Below are positions 18,441 to 31,834 of a stretch of DNA of 39,053 nt, one piece after another. Position 1 is the first letter of the stretch. Each line of letters opens with the position of its first letter. The notes beneath the pieces are model-generated. The model worked only from the letters and a program-made list of their open reading frames with translations, made no database searches and was not told the origin of the DNA. This stretch comes from a virus: IMG/VR virus record IMGVR_UViG_3300010397_000036, positions 1 to 39,053 of that record. The stretch is one strand, 5' to 3'. A program made the translations under genes and the position numbers.

Positions 18441-20629
18441 GACAGGGCCCTATAACCGCTCTTGCCGTTGCTCTTGGCCAGATAGATTTTCTCATCATCA
18501 ACCGCTTCCCTGACGGCCTGGCGAACAAGGTTCGGCGCATAGCCTGACGCCAAAAGCTTGGCCGGAAGAGCGGCATAGATGTGCCGCGAATGGCTCTTGC
18601 GACCGGTGTAGGGGTTGCCTTCATCCCACGCCTTGTTGACGGCCTGGCAGGCGTCTCGGATGCACGCCCACAACAGGCTATCCGTCCCCGGCACGTCGTC
18701 ACCGGCATGAAGCACGCCGTTGGCGTAGAAAAGGCGGATGGCGGTATCATCGCCGCTAGCGGCGTAGTTCGCCTTTCCGCGCGTCAGAATGCGTTCTTCG
18801 CTCGCCCCGTCGTCGGGCTTTTGAAGATACATGCGCGAGCGAACGCTGTTGTTCCAGGCGGTCGAACCACTGAAGCCCCGGCCGTCGGCCTTACCGCTGA
18901 CGGACGGGTGTCCTAGCAACAGAACGGTAAGCGGCGCTTCTGGCCCCCGCTCACGGATCAGGCCGCCCAAAACGGTCTTGATGAAATAATTGACCTGCAC
19001 GCGGTCGATCTCATTACCGCCGTAAATGTCCGCGAGCGTATCGAGAATCAATAGCGACGGCTGTTTCTCGCGAATCTCGGCGGTAAGGTCCTCATAGAAG
19101 GTCGACAGCTTTGCCGTTCCGTCCCTATCCCAAGTGACGATAAGATTGCTTTCCCCGACCCGTGGCCACAGGTGGAAATCGTCGAACGGGTTTCCGATGG
19201 CGTAGCCGAGCGAGGCCTTGATGTCGTTGTGTCGCCGCCACAGCTCGTCTTTCTCGTCCTCGCAGAGAATGGCCATGACAGAGCCCTTCTTGGTCTCCAG
19301 GCCAATCCAATGCACACCGAGGGACACACTCGCCCCAAGCTGCTGAGCGAGAAGCGTCTTCCCAACGCCACCATCACCATACAGGCTGTTGACCGCGCCT
19401 TCTATAATCCAGTCCTGCACCACCCACTGACGGGGAGGCGGCTCACCATTGAGACTGCTGGCGGGGAAGGAATGCGATTTTGACGCAGGCGCTTCCTCGG
19501 CTTCGAAAGCCGCGATCTGGTCAAAAGGGTCGCCTGACTTGATTTCCCCCTTGATCTTGGCGGCGTAGGTTTCGACAGCCTCATCTAGCGTCCTAGCGAA
19601 CGGGATCATGCCGCGCTCAAAGGCGGTCAGGGCCTCAGCGCATTTTTGCTTCAGGAACGACGGTCCCCGCCCCGGACGGTTCTGATCGGCCTTGGCGAGA
19701 TAGACAGGCGCGACGGATTGATAAAGCTCGTCGGGGGTCGGTTCGCTACCCGTCGTCCCGATGATCTCAACAAGGTGTGCACGCACTAGGCGAAAAGCGT
19801 AACCCTCCCGCCCATCCATGACCTTCTCAATCAGCCCTAGCGAACCTGACGGCGCGACCTCGACATCAGCTATGCCAGATGACCTGAAATCGGCGACAGA
19901 GACGGGTGGAAAGGCCTTGTGGATATGCGGCAGAGCAATGGCTTGCAGGGCGTTCTTGGGTCGGTGCAGTTCGCACACTTCCAAGATCCGCCCTTCCTTC
20001 TTGGGCCAGTTGAGCGTCCCCGCCAGGCGCATGATCTGCTTGGCGCTGCACACGGCCGGGTCGCTATGCAAGGCGGCGACGATACCACGAAGCGACGAGC
20101 GCTGTTCGTCACGGTCTGAAATCGCTTCCTCTAGCGGCCACCAGACCTGCACGCGCTTGGTGGGGTGGCGACCCGTGACCACAACGAGCGCCGGCTTGAG
20201 GCCCTGAGCCTCATAAAGCTTACGGGCCGCTTCAAAATCATGATCATCGTCAAAATCTGCGAACAGGCAGTAGGAGCGCTCGAAATCGGTATCGTCGGCG
20301 GCCTTGCCCGGAAAAACATCTTCATGCCGCGTAGCGGCCCCGACATAGACATTGCGGCCGGGCTCGCCGTTAAGCGCGATGGCGTATTCAACAGCCGCTT
20401 CCATGTCGTCGAGGTCAAAGAATTTTGTCTTCGGATGCGGGTGATCGCCGACCTTGATAGAGGTGATCTCGACGCGACCCGTCAGGGCTCGTCCGAACAG
20501 AAATTGCAGGTGCTCCAAGCACCAATCAGGACGCGGCTTGACGAGCGGCGTAACGCTATTATTGACGCCAGCGTCCGGGGCATTAGTATCTGACATGCAG
20601 TGGTCGTCCTTCTCACCCAAGGCTTCCAT
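18437..20629 (-). CDS. Primase-helicase (RepB-like primase plus RepA-like ATPase)
   Basis: The product has 730 aa from ATG 20629. A start at 20596 (MSDTNAPDAG, 719 aa) has a better ribosome site (AGAAGGA) and may be the real one. The N-terminal half is an archaeo-eukaryotic type primase: FADFDDD with Asp125 and Asp127 as metal ligands, KRVQVWWPLEE, and QIMRLAGTLNWPKK at about 198-211. The C-terminal half is a RecA-like hexameric helicase: Walker A GDGGVGKT (418-425), Walker B LLILDT (526-531) and LLLGHPS as motif 3. It would prime and unwind during replication. It is the only replication enzyme in the genome, so host polymerase must be used. Confidence 0.88.
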   Translation of the reverse strand: MEALGEKDDHCMSDTNAPDAGVNNSVTPLVKPRPDWCLEHLQFLFGRALTGRVEITSIKVGDHPHPKTKFFDLDDMEAAVEYAIALNGEPGRNVYVGAATRHEDVFPGKAADDTDFERSYCLFADFDDDHDFEAARKLYEAQGLKPALVVVTGRHPTKRVQVWWPLEEAISDRDEQRSSLRGIVAALHSDPAVCSAKQIMRLAGTLNWPKKEGRILEVCELHRPKNALQAIALPHIHKAFPPVSVADFRSSGIADVEVAPSGSLGLIEKVMDGREGYAFRLVRAHLVEIIGTTGSEPTPDELYQSVAPVYLAKADQNRPGRGPSFLKQKCAEALTAFERGMIPFARTLDEAVETYAAKIKGEIKSGDPFDQIAAFEAEEAPASKSHSFPASSLNGEPPPRQWVVQDWIIEGAVNSLYGDGGVGKTLLAQQLGASVSLGVHWIGLETKKGSVMAILCEDEKDELWRRHNDIKASLGYAIGNPFDDFHLWPRVGESNLIVTWDRDGTAKLSTFYEDLTAEIREKQPSLLILDTLADIYGGNEIDRVQVNYFIKTVLGGLIRERGPEAPLTVLLLGHPSVSGKADGRGFSGSTAWNNSVRSRMYLQKPDDGASEERILTRGKANYAASGDDTAIRLFYANGVLHAGDDVPGTDSLLWACIRDACQAVNKAWDEGNPYTGRKSHSRHIYAALPAKLLASGYAPNLVRQAVREAVDDEKIYLAKSNGKSGYRALS

Positions 20630-24686: not shown

Positions 24687-24941
24687 ATGAAGTCCCTGAT
24701 CGTCTATCAACCCCGCGAGCTGATCCACCAAGCCGTCCGAGACGTGAAAACGGCTTCCGACATGCGCTGGGTCGCTCGGGTCAACGGCTCGCCGCTGGAT
24801 CATGCGCGCCATGCCGACTTCCTGCGGTGGGCTGCTCAGAAGCGCAAACGCGCCGCCGCTAAGCTGGTCTGCGCCGCCTACCAGATCGCTGACGGCCTGA
24901 TCGACAGCGTGGCGCCTTCCATCACGGAAAGGGCCGCCTGA
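24687..24941 (+). CDS. First rightward early protein (84 aa)
   Basis: ATG at 24687 has AAGGAG seven bases before it, so the longer frame from 24627, which would lie over promoter elements, is rejected. The product MKSLIVYQPRELIHQAVRDV and onward is basic and helical with a KRKRAAAKLV stretch. The stop overlaps the next start (TGATG). Function unknown. As the first early gene it is a candidate host-takeover protein. Confidence 0.65.
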   Translation: MKSLIVYQPRELIHQAVRDVKTASDMRWVARVNGSPLDHARHADFLRWAAQKRKRAAAKLVCAAYQIADGLIDSVAPSITERAA

Positions 24942-25792
24942 TGGCCAGCACCTTCGCCAAGGGCGACACCGTCTTCCTGAGCGATGGCCAGGAGGTCGAA
25001 TACATCGCGGGATCGGTCGGCGAGCACGTCGTTCGCCCCATCCTCAACGACGTCGACGACGAGCCGCACTACGGCCGCCCCTTCACCGTCTACGAGGTGT
25101 TCGTCGAGGCGCCGGTCGCGAAGTACGACGAGCGCATCGCCAAGCTGCGCGCCGAAGTCGAGGAGCTTGAGGCCAAAGCCAAGGCCGCCCGCACGGCCTC
25201 GCAGGACTTCGAGCGCGGAGAGCGCGAACGGCGCGAGCGTCTCCGCACGCACGACAGCCTACAGCGCCTAGACGACCTTCTCGCCGGCCGCATCACTCAT
25301 GCCGTGGTCGCCGAATACTGCGGCGCGTCGATCCAGACCTTCGACGAGGTCTTGGTGTATCGCAGGGACAACGGCCGCGAGGAGGGCCTGAAGCTTCTCA
25401 CCCTGTTCGGTAAGAGCGGGGGCGACCTGACCTGGGGCGTGAACCGCTACTACGATGGGTCCGGCAGTAACCAGACCATCTATCCGGCTTGCTCCTACGA
25501 GGAGGCGCTCGAAATCTGGACGCGCCTGTGGGACGCGGCGATGGCCGAGTTCCGCACCAAGACCGGCTACATGCACGGTCTCAACTACTGGATTGAGGCC
25601 GGCAAGAAGGTCGGGGTCGAGCTTCCCGCTGACGTTGCTGAGCGCTGGTACGCCCACGCTGTTGCGAGCGCTGAAGAAGCCCTTGCCAAGGCGCGCTCCG
25701 ACATTGCCAAGAAGGAGAAGGAGCTAGCCACAAGGCGGGCGCTCTTCGAGGCGGCCAAAGCCACCCCCTCCGACACCCATGAGGTGGGGTGA
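24941..25792 (+). CDS. Early coiled-coil protein (283 aa)
   Basis: The N-terminal 55 residues look beta-rich and KOW-like (FAKGDTVFLSDGQEVEYIAG). A coiled coil follows at about 62-105 (IAKLRAEVEELEAKAKAA). A central region (RRDNGREEGLKLLTLFGKSG) precedes a second coiled coil at about 245-270. The gene resembles large early hypotheticals of alphaproteobacterial phages. No catalytic motif is seen. The 3' end includes a hairpin of the boundary repeat. Confidence 0.65.
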   Translation: MASTFAKGDTVFLSDGQEVEYIAGSVGEHVVRPILNDVDDEPHYGRPFTVYEVFVEAPVAKYDERIAKLRAEVEELEAKAKAARTASQDFERGERERRERLRTHDSLQRLDDLLAGRITHAVVAEYCGASIQTFDEVLVYRRDNGREEGLKLLTLFGKSGGDLTWGVNRYYDGSGSNQTIYPACSYEEALEIWTRLWDAAMAEFRTKTGYMHGLNYWIEAGKKVGVELPADVAERWYAHAVASAEEALAKARSDIAKKEKELATRRALFEAAKATPSDTHEVG

Positions 25793-25858
25793 TGGGAGAG
25801 AACAGAGGCCATCCCGGGACCACTGACACGCCCGTCTCGACGCCCAAGAGCGCCGACC
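25762..25858 (-). repeat. Boundary repeat copy 1 (reverse orientation)
   Basis: Hairpin-type CACCCC/GGGGTG block at the end of the 283-aa gene, the ATG of the next gene, then the reverse complement of the CTCTTGGGCGTC-GAGACGGG / CCCGGGA block at 25809-25858. It encodes the N-terminus of the 204-aa protein. Confidence 0.6.
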
Positions 25859-26406
25859 GCGAACTCGAAATAGCCGAGCGTGGCTGGGCAAACGCGCACC
25901 GGGCTTGGAGCCGGGAGGACCACTCGGACGCCATCCGCTCCATGAAGGTCGGCGAGGACATGATGTTCGCCGCCACGGCCTACATCGAATATCTCAAGGA
26001 AGCATTGGAGGGGGCGCTTGCTCGCAACGATGCGGAGCCGTTCAGGCTGATCGGCTGGGGGCTATTTAACCCTGACACCCAGCGCTTCCGCTCGAAGCTC
26101 TATCTCCGCCACGATGACGCGGCGGACGATGCCTTGCGGCTGACCGATAACTACATGCGCATCGAAGCGCGTCCGCTCTACGAAGAGGCGTATCAATCCC
26201 GAATCCCCTCGCGACATCAGCTAATTGCTGCGATCAAGGAGAGCATTCAGGGTGATTTCATCGGCGAAGATCAGGCGGCTGATGCTGTGCTTAAGCTCCT
26301 ATCCGATGGCCCTCTTGGGGGTCAGGACGGGATTGTTCAGCCGTCCCGGGACGAACACTCAACTGTACTTCCCACCCCTCCCTCTAAAGGGGGTGCTGAG
26401 ACATGA
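25792..26406 (+). CDS. Early protein with boundary-repeat sequence at both ends (204 aa)
   Basis: ATG 25792 overlaps the previous stop; a GTG three bases earlier is possible. Residues 6-22 (HPGTTDTPVSTPKSADR) and the last 35 residues (SDGPLGGQDGIVQPSRDEHS and onward) are translations of the same composite repeat in opposite orientation. The core between (LEIAERGWANAHRAWSREDH and onward) is helical and unrecognised. Removing repeat-derived ends leaves a protein of about 150 aa. Confidence 0.65.
   Translation: MGENRGHPGTTDTPVSTPKSADRELEIAERGWANAHRAWSREDHSDAIRSMKVGEDMMFAATAYIEYLKEALEGALARNDAEPFRLIGWGLFNPDTQRFRSKLYLRHDDAADDALRLTDNYMRIEARPLYEEAYQSRIPSRHQLIAAIKESIQGDFIGEDQAADAVLKLLSDGPLGGQDGIVQPSRDEHSTVLPTPPSKGGAET
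26305..26402 (+). repeat. Boundary repeat copy 2 (forward orientation)
   Basis: GATGGCCCTCTTGGGGGTCA then GACGGG, CGTCCCGGGACG at 26342-26353, and the hairpin CACCCC (26373-26378) / GGGGTG (26390-26395), followed by CTGAGACATG, the start of the next gene. It encodes the C-terminal tail of the 204-aa protein and provides the G-rich ribosome site of the 50-aa gene. Confidence 0.65.
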
Positions 26407-26555
26407 CCGACTTGCTCGACTTCGCCGACCTTGACGCCCTATTTCAACTGTCAGGACGCGAGCTGGATGACGCCATAGAGGCGATGTCGTCCGAAACAAT
26501 CGAGGTGCTGATGCGCAAGCTCGCCGAGCATCAAGGACAAGGAGTTCCGCAATGA
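26403..26555 (+). CDS. Small acidic early protein (50 aa)
   Basis: The product MTDLLDFADLDALFQLSGRE and onward is acidic and helical (AMSSETIEVLMRKLAEHQGQ). Its ribosome site is the GGGGG of the repeat hairpin. Its stop overlaps the next start by ATGA. Acidic helical early peptides can be DNA mimics or RNA polymerase binders, but nothing here proves it. Confidence 0.55.
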   Translation: MTDLLDFADLDALFQLSGRELDDAIEAMSSETIEVLMRKLAEHQGQGVPQ

Positions 26556-26746
26556 CCCGCACCGACTATCAGGCCGTCACGCAAGCCGGCGTCACCATCC
26601 GCACCTTCGGAGACCGCGACATTGCGGTGAAGTGGGCGAAGGATCACGGCGTGCAGCATCCGGGTCTTACGATTGACGAAGTGACCGTCACCGAGCTTCG
26701 GCGTCGTGTTTATCGTCCGCGCCCACAGATGATGGAAGTGGCGTGA
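26552..26746 (+). CDS. Small early protein (64 aa)
   Basis: The product has a compact alpha/beta look (MTRTDYQAVTQAGVTIRTFG, then IAVKWAKDH and IDEVTVTELRRRVY). ATGA overlap with the 50-aa gene. Function unknown. Confidence 0.6.
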   Translation: MTRTDYQAVTQAGVTIRTFGDRDIAVKWAKDHGVQHPGLTIDEVTVTELRRRVYRPRPQMMEVA

Positions 26747-26754
26747 GTCCCCAC

Positions 26755-26855
26755 CCCCAACAGCAGGAGGCCGGAATGGCCGATGAAGAACAGAATTTGA
26801 GCGGTCCCGGGGCTGTTGAAGCGCCCGTCTTGACGCCCGAGAGCGCCATCGGTCG
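26755..26855 (-). repeat. Boundary repeat copy 3 (reverse orientation)
   Basis: A C-rich/G-rich block (CCCCACCCCC to AGCAGGAGG) around the gene start, then the reverse complement of the core: GGTCCCGGGG, GCCCGTCTTGACGCC, GAGAGCGCCATC at 26801-26855. It encodes residues 9-26 of the HTPGPW protein. Confidence 0.55.
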
Positions 26856-27171
26856 GCATACGCCGGGGCCGTGGAAGTGGGACTGCGGCATTATCCCGCC
26901 TGATGGCCCCGGACACTACGCTGACATCTACAAGGACGGTGGCGATCTCATCATCGCTCAGTTCAACAAACAAATCCCGGAAGGTCACGCCAACGCCCGC
27001 CTGATCGCCGCCGCTCCCGATCTGGTGGCCGCCCTGAAGCGCAACCGCGCCGCCCTGGACCTCATCGATCCTGACCGGCCGCTTCAATACGCGACCACCA
27101 TGGACTTGATGCGCAAGGACATGGACGCCGCCATTGCTCAAGCGACTGGAGAAGGGCGAGCCAATGGATAG
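26776..27171 (+). CDS. HTPGPW-type phage protein (131 aa)
   Basis: AGGAGG seven bases before ATG 26776 decides the start. After a repeat-derived N-terminus the core reads RHTPGPWKWDCG, then HANARLIAAAPDLVAALKR, a very common phage early protein family of unknown function. The remainder is helical. Overlaps the next gene by eight bases. Confidence 0.75.
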   Translation: MADEEQNLSGPGAVEAPVLTPESAIGRHTPGPWKWDCGIIPPDGPGHYADIYKDGGDLIIAQFNKQIPEGHANARLIAAAPDLVAALKRNRAALDLIDPDRPLQYATTMDLMRKDMDAAIAQATGEGRANG

Positions 27172-27346
27172 CGACGATCAACTCGACCGCATCTTCGATG
27201 CTGCCGAAGGAACGCCATGGGAGGCCAACGAGGACGGCCTGTGGTGCTTGAACTGCGGCAATCACATCGCCGCGCCCTGGAACATCGAAGAGGGCTACGT
27301 CGCCCCTCAGAGCTGCCGCGAGTGCGGCAACGGTTGGGAGGGATAA
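27164..27346 (+). CDS. Zinc-ribbon protein (60 aa)
   Basis: ATG 27164 lies just before the previous stop. After an acidic start, LWCLNCGNH and SCRECGNGW give two CxxC knuckles of a rubredoxin-like zinc ribbon. Such small ribbons often bind nucleic acid or RNA polymerase. Confidence 0.65.
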   Translation: MDSDDQLDRIFDAAEGTPWEANEDGLWCLNCGNHIAAPWNIEEGYVAPQSCRECGNGWEG

Positions 27347-27349
27347 AAC

Positions 27350-27634
27350 ATGGCCGAAGACCGCAAGTTTAAATTCGAGGGCGGCCGTTTCATCAATCGG
27401 GTGTCGGGCGAGCCGATCCCCGACGAAGAGCCCGTCATCCTGTTTCGCGCCCGGGACAAGCACGCCCTCCCCGTCCTGATGGCGTACCTCGACATGGTCA
27501 GTGATCCGCACCATCGCCAAGCGGTCATGGATCGGCTGGACGAGTTCAGCGCCTACCGCGCCGCCTACCCTGAGCGCCTGAAAGAGCCAGGGATCACGGG
27601 CCACATCATCTTGAACAAGGATCGCGGTCAATGA
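27350..27634 (+). CDS. Conserved early phage protein (94 aa)
   Basis: The pattern GGRFINRVSGEPIPDEEPVI, LFRARDKHALPVLMAYLDM is found in many phages and predicted alpha/beta. Function unknown. The stop overlaps the next start. Confidence 0.7.
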   Translation: MAEDRKFKFEGGRFINRVSGEPIPDEEPVILFRARDKHALPVLMAYLDMVSDPHHRQAVMDRLDEFSAYRAAYPERLKEPGITGHIILNKDRGQ

Positions 27635-28392
27635 CCCCCGCCCCTACCCTAGAGGCGGAGAGCCGGGAGCTACTGCCGTGCCCGTTCTGTGGCGGCTTGC
27701 CGATCTCGTCCTATGTCCGCGACGGGCGAGTGATCGTCTGCCAGGGTTGTCACGCCAGCGCGCCGCCTGCCTACCACGGCCCGCCTGACCGGCCCTCCTC
27801 CGAGGAGCGCGCCCGCGAGAACTGGAACCGCCGCACCGCTCCTCCCATCCCTACAGGAGGGGGAGAGCCGAGCAAGAATGGTTACACCTACGACCCGGAT
27901 CACTATTGGTCGCCCGCACAACTGCGGCGCTGGGCTGATCGTGAGTCCTGCCGGGTCGGCGGGGATGCAGAAACGGCTCGCTATCTCTGCCGTGCCGCCG
28001 ACCGCATCGAGGCCCTTAACGCCCCCTCTCCCGCCACTGGAGCCCCGCCGCCCCTCACCGTCCAAGCCGGCTTCCTCCCCGGCTCTGAGAACCACGCCGA
28101 GGCGGTGAAATTCTTGGCTGGAGGGGTGGAGACGGATTGGGAACACTGGTGCCGCTGGCTGATCGAGAAGGCCAACGACCGGGGCCTCACGGATGCCGAG
28201 AAGGTCAGCATCATCGCGCATCTTCCTATGGATGCGCCCTCCCCGCCTCCTGCCGCAGGGGTGACGAAGGAGCAGATTGAGGAATTGCTGGGCAAGCTCC
28301 TGAGCGTTCCAGGGCCTGTTCGAGCCACCATCTTTGGCCAGGACGACGCCGCCGACGCCATCCTCGCCCTCTTCCAAGGAGCGGGCCGGTGA
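27631..28392 (+). CDS. Lar-like zinc-finger protein fused to low-complexity and helical segments (253 aa)
   Basis: Residues 12-70 (LLPCPFCGGLPISS, VIVCQGCHASAP, ARENWNRRTAP) match the restriction-alleviation Lar-type zinc finger family: CPFCG, a second CxxC and the terminal W-N-R-R. Known Lar proteins alleviate type I restriction; many phage relatives are untested. Three Pro/Gly-rich linkers (PPIPTGGGE, PSPATGAPPP, PSPPPAAGV), each over a palindromic C-rich/G-rich DNA block, separate helical segments such as YWSPAQLRRWADRE and EQIEELLGKLLS. Confidence 0.65.
   Translation: MTPAPTLEAESRELLPCPFCGGLPISSYVRDGRVIVCQGCHASAPPAYHGPPDRPSSEERARENWNRRTAPPIPTGGGEPSKNGYTYDPDHYWSPAQLRRWADRESCRVGGDAETARYLCRAADRIEALNAPSPATGAPPPLTVQAGFLPGSENHAEAVKFLAGGVETDWEHWCRWLIEKANDRGLTDAEKVSIIAHLPMDAPSPPPAAGVTKEQIEELLGKLLSVPGPVRATIFGQDDAADAILALFQGAGR
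27638..27658 (+). repeat. Hairpin related to the boundary repeat palindrome
   Basis: CCGCCCCTA and TAGAGGCGG pair with one mismatch around CCC, within the first codons of the Lar-like gene. A similar block (CCTCC/GGAGG) lies at 27841-27860 in the same gene. Confidence 0.45.
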
Positions 28393-28658
28393 GCCTCGAC
28401 ACCAAGCCTTTCCCGATCATGGGCAACGACAAGATCAAGTCGGTTCCTTGGTGGCTGGTCGAAACGGCGCGAGGCCAACTGCAGCGGAACCATGGCCAGA
28501 CTATCGAGCTTCTGGCCAAGCGCGGCGGCCTGGACGTCCTTGAGCTTGCGGGAGCCCTGACCGGTCGCAAGTGGGGGCAGCTTCGCGACCTTAACGAAAC
28601 CCAGGCCCTCGCCGTGATCAACCGGCGACTTGAAGTAGAAGCTGGAGCCGGCCGATGA
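28389..28658 (+). CDS. Conserved early phage protein (89 aa)
   Basis: GTG start overlapping the previous stop (GTGA). The pattern PWWLVETARGQLQRNHGQTI, LLAKRGGLDVLE, RKWGQL is a common small phage protein of unknown function, helical throughout. Confidence 0.65.
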   Translation: MSLDTKPFPIMGNDKIKSVPWWLVETARGQLQRNHGQTIELLAKRGGLDVLELAGALTGRKWGQLRDLNETQALAVINRRLEVEAGAGR

Positions 28659-28759
28659 GCGCGCTGTGGCGGGTTCCATACGGGGTGTTCTGCCTCTTTA
28701 TTGTCATGCTGATCTTCTGCGGCGTGCCGTTTCCGTGGAGCCGGCACCATGAAGATTAA
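28655..28759 (+). CDS. Membrane micropeptide (34 aa)
   Basis: MSALWRVPYGVFCLFIVMLI continues FCGVPFPW: one transmembrane helix with a short charged tail. ATGA overlap with the previous gene, and 11-base overlap with the next. Confidence 0.55.
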   Translation: MSALWRVPYGVFCLFIVMLIFCGVPFPWSRHHED

Positions 28760-28883
28760 GCCGATCTTCGCTTGGTATGACCTCTGGGTCGGGGCGTTCT
28801 GGGACCAATCCAAGCGCCGCCTCTACATCTTTCCGATCCCCTGCTTTGGCGTGGTGATCGATTTTCCGGGAGCCAGCCGATGA
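28749..28883 (+). CDS. 44-aa conserved protein, copy 1
   Basis: The product holds FAWYDLWVGAFWDQSKRRLY, then IFPIPCFGVVIDFP, a conserved tiny protein of proteobacteria and their phages. It is aromatic-rich, probably a small beta-sheet or membrane-surface protein. A near copy lies at 29434. Function unknown. Confidence 0.7.
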   Translation: MKIKPIFAWYDLWVGAFWDQSKRRLYIFPIPCFGVVIDFPGASR

Positions 28884-29437
28884 CCAGTCCGACACGGGAA
28901 GAGGCCATGGCCTGGGTGGAGGGACCGACCGCCTTGGTGCGGCGTGCTGAGAAGGCCGAAGCCGACCTCTCCGCCGCCCGGTTGCGGATCATGGCGCTGG
29001 AGGCCCATGCCGAACAGTTGTTGGTGGCTATGGGCGTTGCCGATCAAGCCAGCGTCGAGGACGACGACTATATCCCGGCCTGTCTCGATATCGGAAAGGC
29101 GGCCGACGAGCTACGCGCCCTCCTCTCCGTTCCACAGGGGGAGACGCGGGGGGGAGATAGGGTCTCCCAGGACCCTGGCCCCCATCCGTGCGGCGAGCAG
29201 GATGAACAGGCCGTGGGTGCGACGGCTGCGCTCGCTGGGTGGCGGCCCATAAGCAGCGCTCCAAAAGATGGCTCTGCCGTCCTGCTGTTCTTTCCCAAAC
29301 GATACAGCGGTTCAGGTGGAATTTCATGGGGTTGCCATGTGTCTGGCGACTGGCTGGATAGCCGTGCCATTCGCGACAATGACGCATCCCATTGGATGCC
29401 GCTGCCCGAACCTCCGGCCCCGGGAGAGGGTCAATGA
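28880..29437 (+). CDS. DUF551-like protein with coiled-coil N-terminus (185 aa)
   Basis: The C-terminal 70 residues read GWRPISSAPKDGSAVLLFFP and then SHWMPLPEPP, the DUF551 pattern of phage early proteins. The first 75 residues form a coiled coil (AEKAEADLSAARLRIMALEA). A repeat-like linker (SVPQGETRGGD) lies between. Function unknown. Confidence 0.7.
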   Translation: MTSPTREEAMAWVEGPTALVRRAEKAEADLSAARLRIMALEAHAEQLLVAMGVADQASVEDDDYIPACLDIGKAADELRALLSVPQGETRGGDRVSQDPGPHPCGEQDEQAVGATAALAGWRPISSAPKDGSAVLLFFPKRYSGSGGISWGCHVSGDWLDSRAIRDNDASHWMPLPEPPAPGEGQ

Positions 29438-29568
29438 AAATCCGTCTGATTTTCGCCTGGTATGACCTCTGGGTCGGGGCGTTCTGGGACCAGTCCAAGC
29501 GCCGCCTCTATGTCCTGCCAATCCCATGCTGCGGCGTAGTGATCGACTTCCCCCGAGGTGACCGATGA
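29434..29568 (+). CDS. 44-aa conserved protein, copy 2
   Basis: Same length as the 28749 copy and nearly the same sequence: FAWYDLWVGAFWDQSKRRLY is identical, the end (VLPIPCCGVVIDFP) differs by a few residues. ATGA overlaps with both neighbours. A recent tandem duplication with the 185-aa gene between is likely. Confidence 0.7.
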   Translation: MKIRLIFAWYDLWVGAFWDQSKRRLYVLPIPCCGVVIDFPRGDR

Positions 29569-30068
29569 GCCCGATCCGTGAAGCCATGGCGCGCCGTATC
29601 GATCCGGGGTCGTGGACGAATTTCGACGCTGACCCGAACCACCACAATCGGCTTTCCTGGGTGCGCCCATCGCTCGACAAGGCGGACGAAATCGTCGCCC
29701 TCTTTGGCGAGATCGAGCCGACTGCGTGGCTTGCCGAACAGCACCTCGCCGAAAGCCTGTGGAGCGAACCCCGACTCCTGCACGACGTGCCAAAGACTGG
29801 CTGGTCGGGCTGGCGCAACGTCTGGCCGCTATATGCCCTCGACACCATTCCCGGCCACGCCGCACCGACGCCGGTAACCATTTCACCGACGCCCGCCCAG
29901 CTTCGCCATTTCGCGGCTGAGATCACCGACAACGACCGGCGGCTGGCCGGTACGCGCGGCAACTTCAGCATTCTGGTCGCCAAGCACCTTCAAGGTGCAG
30001 CGGACCTGATCGAGTCCTTGTCGGCCACCGTTGGTTATCGGGGCGCTGGGCCTGAGACGGGGGGATAG
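29565..30068 (+). CDS. Early protein (167 aa)
   Basis: The N-terminal part (ARRIDPGSWTNFDADPNHHN) is a frequent start of phage hypothetical proteins. The middle has TGWSGWRNVWPLYAL and the C-terminus PTPAQLRHFAAEITDNDRRL, helical. No function known. Confidence 0.65.
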   Translation: MSPIREAMARRIDPGSWTNFDADPNHHNRLSWVRPSLDKADEIVALFGEIEPTAWLAEQHLAESLWSEPRLLHDVPKTGWSGWRNVWPLYALDTIPGHAAPTPVTISPTPAQLRHFAAEITDNDRRLAGTRGNFSILVAKHLQGAADLIESLSATVGYRGAGPETGG

Positions 30069-30070
30069 CC

Positions 30071-30283
30071 ATGGCCGTCGATGAATTTCGCAAGGCCGCG
30101 CACGAACAAGGCGACCAAGACGACGTCATCCACCGCGAGGTGGAATGTGAAGCGTGCGGCGGAAGCCGCATCGAGGAGGTCTACGTGGGCCATGGCGTAG
30201 TTATTGAGTTTGAATGCGGAGCATGCGCGACCGCATCTCCGACGCCTGACACCGTCCCCGGCGAAAGTGGAGATAAGTCATGA
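30071..30283 (+). CDS. Zinc-ribbon protein (70 aa)
   Basis: VECEACGGSRIEEVYVGHG, then FECGACATAS: two CxxC knuckles about 20 residues apart, typical of zinc ribbons. A disordered Thr/Pro/Ser tail follows. Overlaps the next start by ATGA. Confidence 0.65.
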   Translation: MAVDEFRKAAHEQGDQDDVIHREVECEACGGSRIEEVYVGHGVVIEFECGACATASPTPDTVPGESGDKS

Positions 30284-30660
30284 GTGATCACCCCAGGGCC
30301 GCCGTCTCCGCGCCAAGTAGCGCGGACTGTGCGCCTCGGCGCTGCGGCCTTTGCGGAGAAATCGAGCGTTGCGATTGCTGGTCGCAAGACACTCAGCTTG
30401 AGCCGCCATCCTCGCGCGCAGTCAACACCGCAGGCATCTGGGCCTATCGCGGCTGGCACATCACCAAGGAACCGGACGGCCGGTGGCACGGGTTCAGCGG
30501 CAACTATGACGCCTCGTACGAAGGTCCAGAAGACGGTTGGGTCGATAACAGCGAGAGGGTGGATGGCGCGACGCTGTCGGAAGCCTGTGACGAAATCGAC
30601 GCCTTCATCGAAGAGGGCGAAGAGGCCGAGCGAGCATATGAGGCCCAAGATGCCGAGTAA
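30280..30660 (+). CDS. Early protein with cysteine cluster (126 aa)
   Basis: The first 20 residues (MSDHPRAAVSAPSSADCAP) are a diverged translation of the boundary repeat. Then CGLCGEIERCDCW, a possible metal site, a beta-rich part (WAYRGWHITKEPDGRWHGFS) and an acidic helix end (IDAFIEEGEEAERAYEAQDA). Confidence 0.6.
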   Translation: MSDHPRAAVSAPSSADCAPRRCGLCGEIERCDCWSQDTQLEPPSSRAVNTAGIWAYRGWHITKEPDGRWHGFSGNYDASYEGPEDGWVDNSERVDGATLSEACDEIDAFIEEGEEAERAYEAQDAE

Positions 30661-30934
30661 CCGCGTGAATAATCGGGGCGTCCCCAAGTCTCTGGCGGGC
30701 GTTCCCGTCGACCGTATGACGCTGGAGCGCATCAAGCTTCGGGTGCAGAGAATCTTACCCCCACGACCGCTTGAGCGGCCGATAAGCGACTTGCTCGCCG
30801 CCGCCTACATGGCCGGGATCGTTGATGGAGCTTCTGGCCAGCGAGCAATTACCGATGGCCCTCTTGGGGGTCAAGACGGGCAACTCCGGGACGATCTAAA
30901 TCCCGTCGCCACCCCTACTCTAGGGGAGGGCTGA
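30638..30934 (+). CDS. Early protein ending in boundary-repeat sequence (98 aa)
   Basis: The start may be ATG 30638 or 30650. Both overlap the previous gene; the 216-aa frame from 30284 is not real. The core RMTLERIKLRVQRILPPRPL and AAAYMAGIVDGASGQ is helical. The last 30 residues (TDGPLGGQDGQLRDDLNP and onward) are repeat-derived, as in the 204-aa protein. Confidence 0.6.
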   Translation: MRPKMPSNRVNNRGVPKSLAGVPVDRMTLERIKLRVQRILPPRPLERPISDLLAAAYMAGIVDGASGQRAITDGPLGGQDGQLRDDLNPVATPTLGEG

Positions 30935-30938
30935 GACA
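30854..30938 (+). repeat. Boundary repeat copy 4 (forward orientation)
   Basis: GATGGCCCTCTTGGGGGTCA then AGACGGG, CCGGGACGA, and the perfect hairpin CCCCTA (30912-30917) / TAGGGG (30921-30926), then GGGCTGAGACA directly before the next ATG. Same order and spacing idea as copy 2. Confidence 0.65.
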
Positions 30939-31175
30939 ATGGCCGGGAAGACGCTGGAACTCCTCAAGCTCGTCGCGGCCGGTGGAAGTAGCCTGTCATA
31001 CGAGGACTACCCTGACGATCCCGCCATGCAGTTTGTCGATGACGGTGAACCCGACACGCTGAACGCCACCATAGACGCTGGCCTCCTACTGTGGAGCCAC
31101 GACAGCAGCAGCGACACCAGCTTCCTGAGACTGTCGAGCGCCGGCCGCCAAGCCCTCACCCAGGAGCAGAGCTAA
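30939..31175 (+). CDS. Small early protein (78 aa)
   Basis: The product has LELLKLVAAGGSSLSYEDYP and a C-terminal winged-helix-like ending (FLRLSSAGRQALTQ), as in small regulators where a helix follows a beta-wing. Its ribosome site (GGGGAGGG) is part of the repeat hairpin. Stop overlaps the HNH start (TAATG). Confidence 0.55.
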   Translation: MAGKTLELLKLVAAGGSSLSYEDYPDDPAMQFVDDGEPDTLNATIDAGLLLWSHDSSSDTSFLRLSSAGRQALTQEQS

Positions 31176-31588
31176 TGGCTGGGAAGCTGACGAAGGCGCA
31201 GCGGGCGCAGGTGTTCGCGATGTTCGATGGCCGTTGCGCCTACTGCGGGTGCGAGCTTGGGAAGGGTTGGCACGCAGACCATTTCGATCCCGTCATTCGC
31301 GTCATGACGACGGGCCATCGGGAGGACGGCTTTCACCAACTCCATCCCGAGCGGAACACCTTCGAAAACTACCGTCCGTCGTGCCCGCCCTGCAACATCG
31401 ACAAGCACCGGATGACGCTGGAGCGCTGGCGCGAATGGCTAGGCGTGCGGTTAGAGGCCCTGAAAAAGCAAGCCGGTTTCAAGCTGCTCTCGGCCCATGG
31501 CTTGATCGCTGAGACCGGCTTGCCTGTCGTCTTCTATTTCGAACGGCTCAACGCCGGCCGCGCCGCTCTTGAAGCCAAGGAGGACTGA
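31175..31588 (+). CDS. HNH endonuclease (137 aa)
   Basis: ATG 31175 overlaps the previous stop. CAYCGCELGKGWHADHFDPV supplies the CxxC and the H of the HNH core, followed by N-T-F-E-N and SCPPCNIDK with the second zinc pair and a C-terminal helix WREWLGVRLEALKKQ. It cuts DNA as a free-standing or homing nuclease. Position near the end of the early transcript is a common site for such genes. Confidence 0.85.
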   Translation: MAGKLTKAQRAQVFAMFDGRCAYCGCELGKGWHADHFDPVIRVMTTGHREDGFHQLHPERNTFENYRPSCPPCNIDKHRMTLERWREWLGVRLEALKKQAGFKLLSAHGLIAETGLPVVFYFERLNAGRAALEAKED

Positions 31589-31591
31589 CCC

Positions 31592-31834
31592 ATGACCCTA
31601 GACAGCACCCCCGATAGCGCCGGGTGGATCGAATGGAGGGGCGGGGAGTGTCCGGTGGGGCCTCAAGCGAAGGTCCGCGTTCGCTATAACTGCGGCGAGG
31701 TCAGCAAGTGGTTAGCCGCGAAGTTCTTCCCGTGGTCATGGCGCGCGGACGCTCCCGGCTACAACGTTCGAGCCTATCAAGCCAAGGGGCTTGCCCGCGC
31801 CCTTCTCGGTTCGGAGGGGCGAGACGATGGGTGA
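31592..31834 (+). CDS. Conserved small early protein (80 aa)
   Basis: WIEWRGGECPVGPQAKVRVR, then a Trp-rich strand (FFPWSWRADAPGYNVRAYQ) is the pattern of a widespread phage protein of unknown function with a small beta fold. Confidence 0.65.
   Translation: MTLDSTPDSAGWIEWRGGECPVGPQAKVRVRYNCGEVSKWLAAKFFPWSWRADAPGYNVRAYQAKGLARALLGSEGRDDG

Follow-up and report, generated by a model that had tools for sequence, protein, structure and literature searches.

Introduction

CGTC-tagged repetitive extragenic palindromes (REPs) are found mostly in alphaproteobacteria, with C. crescentus among the positive species, and consist of a CGTC (or TGTC/CCTC) tag, a stem of 8 to 9 bp, a loop of 4 to 5 nt, and a tail that is mostly CCA (PMC3733652). 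Complementary A/T residues occupy stem positions 1 and 2 "almost invariably", no transposase is dedicated to these repeats, and they are sometimes located inside genes, at either gene end (PMC3733652). RPE-4 and RPE-6, two Rickettsia palindromic elements (RPEs) of R. conorii, have been classed with them, and the defining paper by Di Nocera, De Gregorio and Rocco (2013) left open whether new CGTC-tagged REPs still form (PMC3733652). Here we describe a 27-bp CGTC-tagged palindromic unit in the virus record IMGVR_UViG_3300010397_000036, a stretch of 39,053 bases that is referred to in its entirety as the window. A sequence-only reading of the window had proposed a composite palindromic repeat at early-gene boundaries that extends proteins and shuffles early genes. 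We find a sharply bounded unit that recurs in four phage lineages, inside the ends of non-homologous genes and in both orientations, with a hairpin that is kept by compensatory changes.

A sharply bounded unit in four phage lineages

From tail to tag the core of the unit reads CCG-ATGGCGCT-CTTG-GGCGYCAA-GACG, where GACG is the CGTC tag on the other strand. Four copies in the window are good, two on each strand, and a fifth is uncertain:

26303 to 26329, plus strand: F1, 27-bp unit CCGATGGCCCTCTTGGGGGTCAGGACG, in the C-terminal tail of gene 25789-26406, peptide SDGPLGGQDG
30852 to 30878, plus strand: F2, 27-bp unit, in the C-terminal tail of gene 30650-30934, peptide TDGPLGGQDG
25833 to 25859, minus strand: R1, 27-bp unit, in the N-terminal tail of gene 25789/25792-26406, peptide TPVSTPKSAD
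26826 to 26852, minus strand: R2, 27-bp unit, in the N-terminal tail of gene 26776-27171, peptide APVLTPESAI
30303 to 30329, minus strand: R3, possible diverged copy, in the N-terminal tail of gene 30280-30660, peptide AAVSAPSSAD

The four palindromic cores of the sequence-only reading and the CCCGGGA that it placed beside the core were thus recovered. One pair of arms, 26823-26853 and 30851-30881, shows 90% complementarity over 31 nt at a distance of 4 kb. With a weight matrix built solely from the copies of three foreign phages, the top four scores in the window were exactly F1, F2, R1 and R2 (27.9, 25.3, 21.7 and 19.9 bits), followed by 13.9 bits for the next site; the best single score over 100 simulated windows was 21.4. 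The fifth copy, proposed at about 30290-30335, fared less well, as the sequence score of R3 is at background and a model trained without it does not find it. R3 is retained as a possible copy because it is a perfect CGTC-tagged hairpin whose geometry, place, orientation and phase are those of the other copies. Two more CGTC-tagged hairpins of the same strict geometry, unrelated in sequence, lie at 18906 and 35960 (both minus strand), a number close to chance expectation.

A pattern scan of 2.9 million viral contigs revealed three further phage lineages with one copy each: G009 (together with a near-identical contig of L010), G010 and G013. Further copies in other phages, on which the sequence-only reading had depended, therefore exist. 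When one copy per lineage was aligned, identity was 0.96 inside the unit. In flanks of 25 bp it was 0.30 on one side and 0.26 on the other, the drop from 1.0 to background taking place within one base past the CCG tail and the GACG tag. Since 18 unit positions were fixed by the scan pattern, the inside identity is partly ascertained; the seven open positions of the pattern and a CC outside it are conserved between lineages as well, and nothing in the search design was able to depress the identity of the flanks. The alignment, covariance model and phage scan that had been suggested as a check gave 35 to 46 bits for the known copies and 20.8 bits for the next best site in a covariance search of 294 kb.

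The four carrier lineages have little or no relationship apart from the unit. With the window, G009 has in common a primase/helicase and a neighbouring DNA-metabolism protein at 50-54% identity, together with some matches that are short and weak. For G013 there is a weak match of the terminase (27% over 175 aa), and for G010 the endolysin alone gives a match (33%). No gene adjoining a unit was common to any two carriers in this comparison.

A hairpin kept by compensatory changes

Each unit can be laid out as a CGTC tag, two 8-nt arms, a 4-nt loop and a 3-nt tail. The tag is invariant (8/8 copies) and lies exactly at the edge of between-lineage conservation. Seven stem pairs form, one of them U-G, and the outermost position is mismatched in 6/8 copies; an A/T pair is present at just one of stem positions 1 and 2 in each copy. 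Read in tag orientation, the tail is CGG, CCG or CTG.

Every one of the 49 cells that the seven stem pairs occupy in the gapless alignment A2 is a standard pair. Three pairs show changes on both sides: T-A to C-G in R1 and R3, G-C to C-G in F1 and F2, and G-C to C-G in R3. The observed pairing or covariation score was reached by none of 500 shuffles. Without R3, two pairs still change on both sides and the score was reached by 2/500 shuffles, while sliding the partner by 1 to 3 columns reduced pairing to 38-52%. The independent covariation events are few because F1 and F2 probably descend from one another. These results establish that the hairpin is constrained and maintained by compensatory changes. 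The RNA of the reverse copies is the complement, with the loop CAAG in place of CUUG.

Placement in genes and protein tails

All copies are located close to a gene end, the distances from the unit to the nearer end being 77 nt (F1), 56 nt (F2), 41 nt (R1), 50 nt (R2), 23 nt (R3), 86 nt (G010), 20 nt (G013) and 35 nt (G009). The tag end faces the nearer gene end in 8/8 copies, and the codon phase of these copies is constant within each orientation, so forward copies encode DG(P/A)LG(G/R)QD and reverse copies PV(L/S)(T/A)P(K/E)SA(I/D). All six frames of the unit are open as read from its sequence; therefore, open frames alone do not impose the constant phase. When independent lineages alone are counted, this regularity is suggestive and does not amount to proof. 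Differences among copies mostly change amino acids and retain the hairpin.

The genes that hold the copies in the window are the following:

25789 to 26406, plus strand: host gene of R1 and F1, 205 aa, one unit in each end, no relatives found
26776 to 27171, plus strand: host gene of R2, phrog_1273 family, a 26-aa N-terminal extension containing R2
30280 to 30660, plus strand: host gene of the possible R3, 126 aa, only a weak partial match found
30650 to 30934, plus strand: host gene of F2, 94 aa, no relatives found

Two gene families allowed the tails to be compared with relatives, as the sequence-only reading had suggested. In the R2 gene, the unit lies in the 26 residues before HTPGPW, and all five inspected relatives begin within a few residues of HTPGPW. 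In G013 the copy falls within the opening residues of an ASCH-domain protein (MASRTQPVLAPKSAIGDAALSGAVRERPILFSAP...) that is matched in 343 phage records, none of them over more than 80% of the query; the four inspected relatives begin near (K)ERPILFS, i.e., without the tail. An apparent extension of the ASCH alignment to residue 7 by tblastn in Pseudomonas phages was spurious, as these proteins begin close to ERPILFS. In these two families the tails are additions to the host proteins, and the proposal that the core extends proteins, with DGPLGGQDG as C-terminal tail in forward orientation and N-terminal tails in reverse, holds. Neither of the outcomes that the sequence-only reading had named as refuting it was obtained, since other phages have copies and the inspected relatives in these two families lack the tails. 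Protein searches found no relatives for genes 25792-26403 and 24941-25789 or for the gene that carries the unit in G010.

Sequences beside the unit

In some copies, similarity continues beyond the 27 bp into a companion sequence, which was annotated for the four good copies as follows:

26330 to 26402, plus strand: F1 companion, TTCAGCCGTCCCGGGAC..., a C-rich/G-rich hairpin, a Shine-Dalgarno (SD)-like GGGGGTG, and CTGAGACATG of the next gene
30879 to 30938, plus strand: F2 companion, reaching CTGAGACA ahead of the ATG at 30939
25762 to 25832, minus strand: R1 companion, TCCCGGGA and a C-rich/G-rich hairpin at the stop/start junction
26776 to 26825, minus strand: R2 companion, GCCCCGGGACC, CTCAA..CTGTTCTTC

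The companions were compared pair by pair with simple shuffles, the p-values being uncorrected for 21 comparisons. Two pairs gave p<0.001: F1 with F2, similar as far as the start codon, and R1 with the G013 copy, similar over the stop/start junction. F1 was also similar to R2 (p=0.005) and to R1 (p=0.01), and most of the remaining pairs showed no likeness. Some copies thus belong to a larger unit, up to about 100 bp long with a companion of up to about 75 bp, in which TCCCGGGA and, at the start site, the C-rich/G-rich stretch are included. The predicted ending CTGAGACA(A)TG follows the core in both forward copies, and in F1 and F2 the C-rich/G-rich stretch pairs with the SD-like G-run.

The sequence-only reading had made this hairpin the second part of the element. 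The hairpin is indeed common to some copies. Its folding is ordinary, as the whole-element folds are not more stable than shuffles (mRNA-strand z 0.09, -0.33, -0.46, 1.15, -1.84 and 0.17), and the hairpin density of the early region is also ordinary, with 8 strong hairpins versus 4 to 11 in other stretches of equal length. The ribosome-site hairpin is not a defining part of the element, and the original observation is confirmed in part. Hairpins in the Lar-like gene resemble the C-rich/G-rich ones by eye only. We also considered the element as a structured RNA and as a promoter or terminator, and rejected both. For the first, the folds are no more stable than shuffles and Rfam gave no match; for the second, 24800-31600 contains no sigma-70-like promoter (other promoter types were not covered) and no terminator was found at any copy.

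Searches beyond the four carriers

The unit was not found in 50,697 phage records, and exact-pattern scans of about 85,000 bacterial species yielded no copy. The core pattern had no match in records titled Rickettsia or Wolbachia in a genome pattern scan. A longer exact core had no match in the viral and genome collections because the GGG past the tag is not common to all lineages and one column varies. Several sets of candidates were dismissed as chance matches: those to looser patterns beyond the known carriers (5 to 11 mismatches), 75 bacterial matches (3 to 9 mismatches), five matches in 398 Caulobacterales genomes, covariance matches of up to 29 bits in 60 genomes, whose E-values look too optimistic, and weak phage BLAST matches (E 0.6 to 8). 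The suggested search of host genomes thus gave no close copy in the bacterial genome scans. An assembly artefact as the source of the copies was judged unlikely, because the copies stem from differently numbered IMG/VR data sets.

The window and its likely host

The window has an exact end repeat of 123 bp. Its minus strand carries genes for terminase, portal, major head protein, endolysin and primase/helicase, and the plus-strand region at 24.9-31.6 kb contains numerous small genes, including those for Lar-like and DUF551 proteins. The host is likely to belong to the Caulobacteraceae, since the DNA at 31.2-31.5 kb is 79% identical to that of Caulobacter phages RW, KcrB, RLK and GB2A. An HNH endonuclease gene (31175-31585), located downstream of the gene that follows F2, has this 79% identity to the four Caulobacter phages and is possibly a mobile endonuclease near the repeat. 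A 44-aa gene (IKPIFAWYDLWVGAFWDQSKRRLY...) is present twice in the window (28749-28883 and 29434-29568; 81% DNA identity), and a relative of it occurs in G009 (L013, about 996-1104). Two gene starts of G009 (L013 360-381 and 1730-1751) have CATGACTAACCC in common, possibly a further start-associated repeat. The G013 contig opens with a pentapeptide-repeat gene (L111 1-220) whose DNA is 81% identical to that of Caulobacter phage BL94, a hint at a similar host.

Comparison with described systems

Compared to the CGTC-tagged REPs, the unit shows several common features: an unpaired CGTC end, a short stem, a 4-nt loop, a 3-nt tail, and the habit of lying inside genes at either end. Another is that none of the four carriers has a Y1_Tnp match, other transposase families not having been searched. 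It differs in being found in phages, in 1 to 5 copies and inside gene ends, whereas REPs are mostly intergenic and present in many copies per chromosome. Furthermore, its tail is CGG, CCG or CTG instead of CCA, the A/T rule at the foot of the stem is half satisfied, the stem has 7 pairs and a mismatch, and no bacterial family of its sequence was found. The standard form can be seen at a Bradyrhizobium locus (L047 4223-4320), a CGTC-tagged REP dimer that reads CGTCATTGCGAGCGAAGCGAAGCAATCCA...TGGATTGC...GCAATGACG. The unit works like a CGTC-tagged REP and is probably related to it in kind. We do not file it as a member, because the CCA tail and the A/T rule fail and no bacterial chromosome was found to have the same family.

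The likeness to the in-frame elements of Rickettsia that had been proposed for this repeat is borne out, since RPE-4 and RPE-6 are themselves CGTC-tagged REPs and the unit has their tag and geometry. As described, these two elements are CGTC-tagged palindromes in frame inside protein genes, to which they add amino acids (PMC3767692, PMC3733652), and RPE-4, RPE-6 and RPE-7 are reported to have ATGAC in common, whose complement, GTCAT, occurs in a CGTCAT start. In two gene families, moreover, the in-frame palindrome of the phages is absent from relatives of the host genes, as with RPEs. RPE insertions are longer, 84 to 192 bp among entries of a table for R. japonica (PMC3767692), and are described from bacterial genes, whereas the unit is in phage genes only, and only at their ends.

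Among phage repeats, the start-associated sequences (SAS) and extended SAS (ESAS) of cluster K mycobacteriophages are likewise short repeats at the starts of unrelated genes, ESAS with inverted repeats (PMC3203893). SAS differ in being 13 bp long, immediately upstream of gene starts, nearly always in one orientation and many per genome (PMC3203893), whereas the unit occurs in either orientation and within the coding ends. In T4-type phages, promoter early stem-loops (PeSLs) are hairpin patches at early gene junctions that are reported to mediate gene shuffling (cited in PMC4503421); they are described as composites of a promoter and a stem-loop, unlike the unit, in which neither promoter nor terminator was found. 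Finally, GTAG-tagged REPs, with the REP-associated tyrosine transposase (RAYT, TnpA_REP), resemble the unit in that a tagged single-strand hairpin is the proposed unit of dispersal (PMC8266576, PMC3733652). They are unlike it in tag, and the carriers have no RAYT (Y1) gene. From sequence comparison, we call the unit a phage-borne, REP/RPE-like, presumably mobile palindrome in frame at gene ends.

Discussion

The explanation that we favor, at somewhat better than even confidence, is a small dispersed palindromic element of the REP/RPE type, 27 bp long, with a CGTC tag, an imperfect stem of 7 to 8 bp, a 4-nt loop and a 3-nt tail. That the unit is mobile is strongly suggested by its sharp edges in phages that are otherwise unrelated. 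As a folded single strand it may copy itself, or be copied, to new sites, and insertions would survive if all they do is extend one end of a dispensable early protein by a short tail in a frame that is tolerated. As the carriers encode no Y1 transposase, the mobilising enzyme, for example a Y1/HUH transposase, could be supplied in trans by the host; this last step is speculative.

Several observations weigh against mobility of this kind. First, a Y1_Tnp match is lacking in all four carriers, whereas the control genome of C. vibrioides gave a match to the Y1 transposase family. Second, copies are few, with one per carrier outside the window, and no host family of the same sequence was found in the genome scans. 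Third, an empty site with matching flanks was not found. Fourth, the constant phase and outward tag of all 8 copies exceed the regularity expected of free insertion. In addition, the CGTC tag by itself could match by chance, with a probability of roughly a few per cent by our own estimate.

Alternatively, the short patches may serve as a recombination linker at gene junctions, like PeSLs, providing homology for early-gene swaps in co-infection with the tails as by-products. Every copy is within about 86 nt of a gene end, with the tag toward the junction and amid small early-type genes; the companion extends as far as the start codon in both F1 and F2, and in R1 and the G013 copy it covers the stop/start junction; and a constant phase suits recombination that preserves gene ends. 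However, no gene beside a copy is common to the carriers, direct exchange between forward and reverse copies would cause inversion, the element has no promoter or terminator, and the conserved 27 bp stop within the gene instead of at the junction. We regard a linker as unlikely. The proposed shuffling of early genes is not supported; what remains of the earlier interpretation is a protein-extending, Rickettsia-like palindrome whose mobility is strongly suggested.

Two further explanations seem improbable to a similar degree. A cis-acting RNA hairpin regulating translation of the gene pair (by ribosome-site masking, translational coupling or a protein-binding hairpin) would fit copies within about 90 nt of a gene junction, the covarying pairing, and companion hairpins in F1 and F2 that pair with an SD-like G-run. 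Against it, the reverse copies give the complementary RNA, with its different loop, in a position after the start codon, and neither fold stability nor Rfam sets the element apart. A site in double-stranded DNA that is bound by a common phage or host protein, and that owes its conservation to being read and not to moving, would explain a short, palindromic, orientation-independent sequence strongly conserved between unrelated phages. Yet its half-site letters vary as compensated pairs instead of being fixed, it lies inside coding ends, just one is present per genome in three carriers, and the 50,697 phage records and bacterial genome scans contain no copy. A peptide tail selected at the protein level, e.g., as a binding or degradation tag, agrees with the constant phase and the recurring peptides but is very improbable, as forward and reverse copies encode peptides that are unrelated and sit at opposite ends of the protein, copy differences mostly change amino acids while keeping the hairpin, and relatives of two host genes lack the tail.

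The small dispersed palindrome favored here also admits a bolder version, which we put forward tentatively and with some doubt: phages may carry and transmit their own, still mobile family of CGTC palindromes, which lands only at gene ends, tag outward and in one phase, tailing early proteins. If true, phages would be vehicles for a class of repeats whose spread in bacteria is unexplained. The unit provides a small collection of insertions that appear recent and are tractable, in genes with known tail-less relatives, and its carriers allow one to ask what moves CGTC-type repeats and whether proteins tolerate or use the tails.

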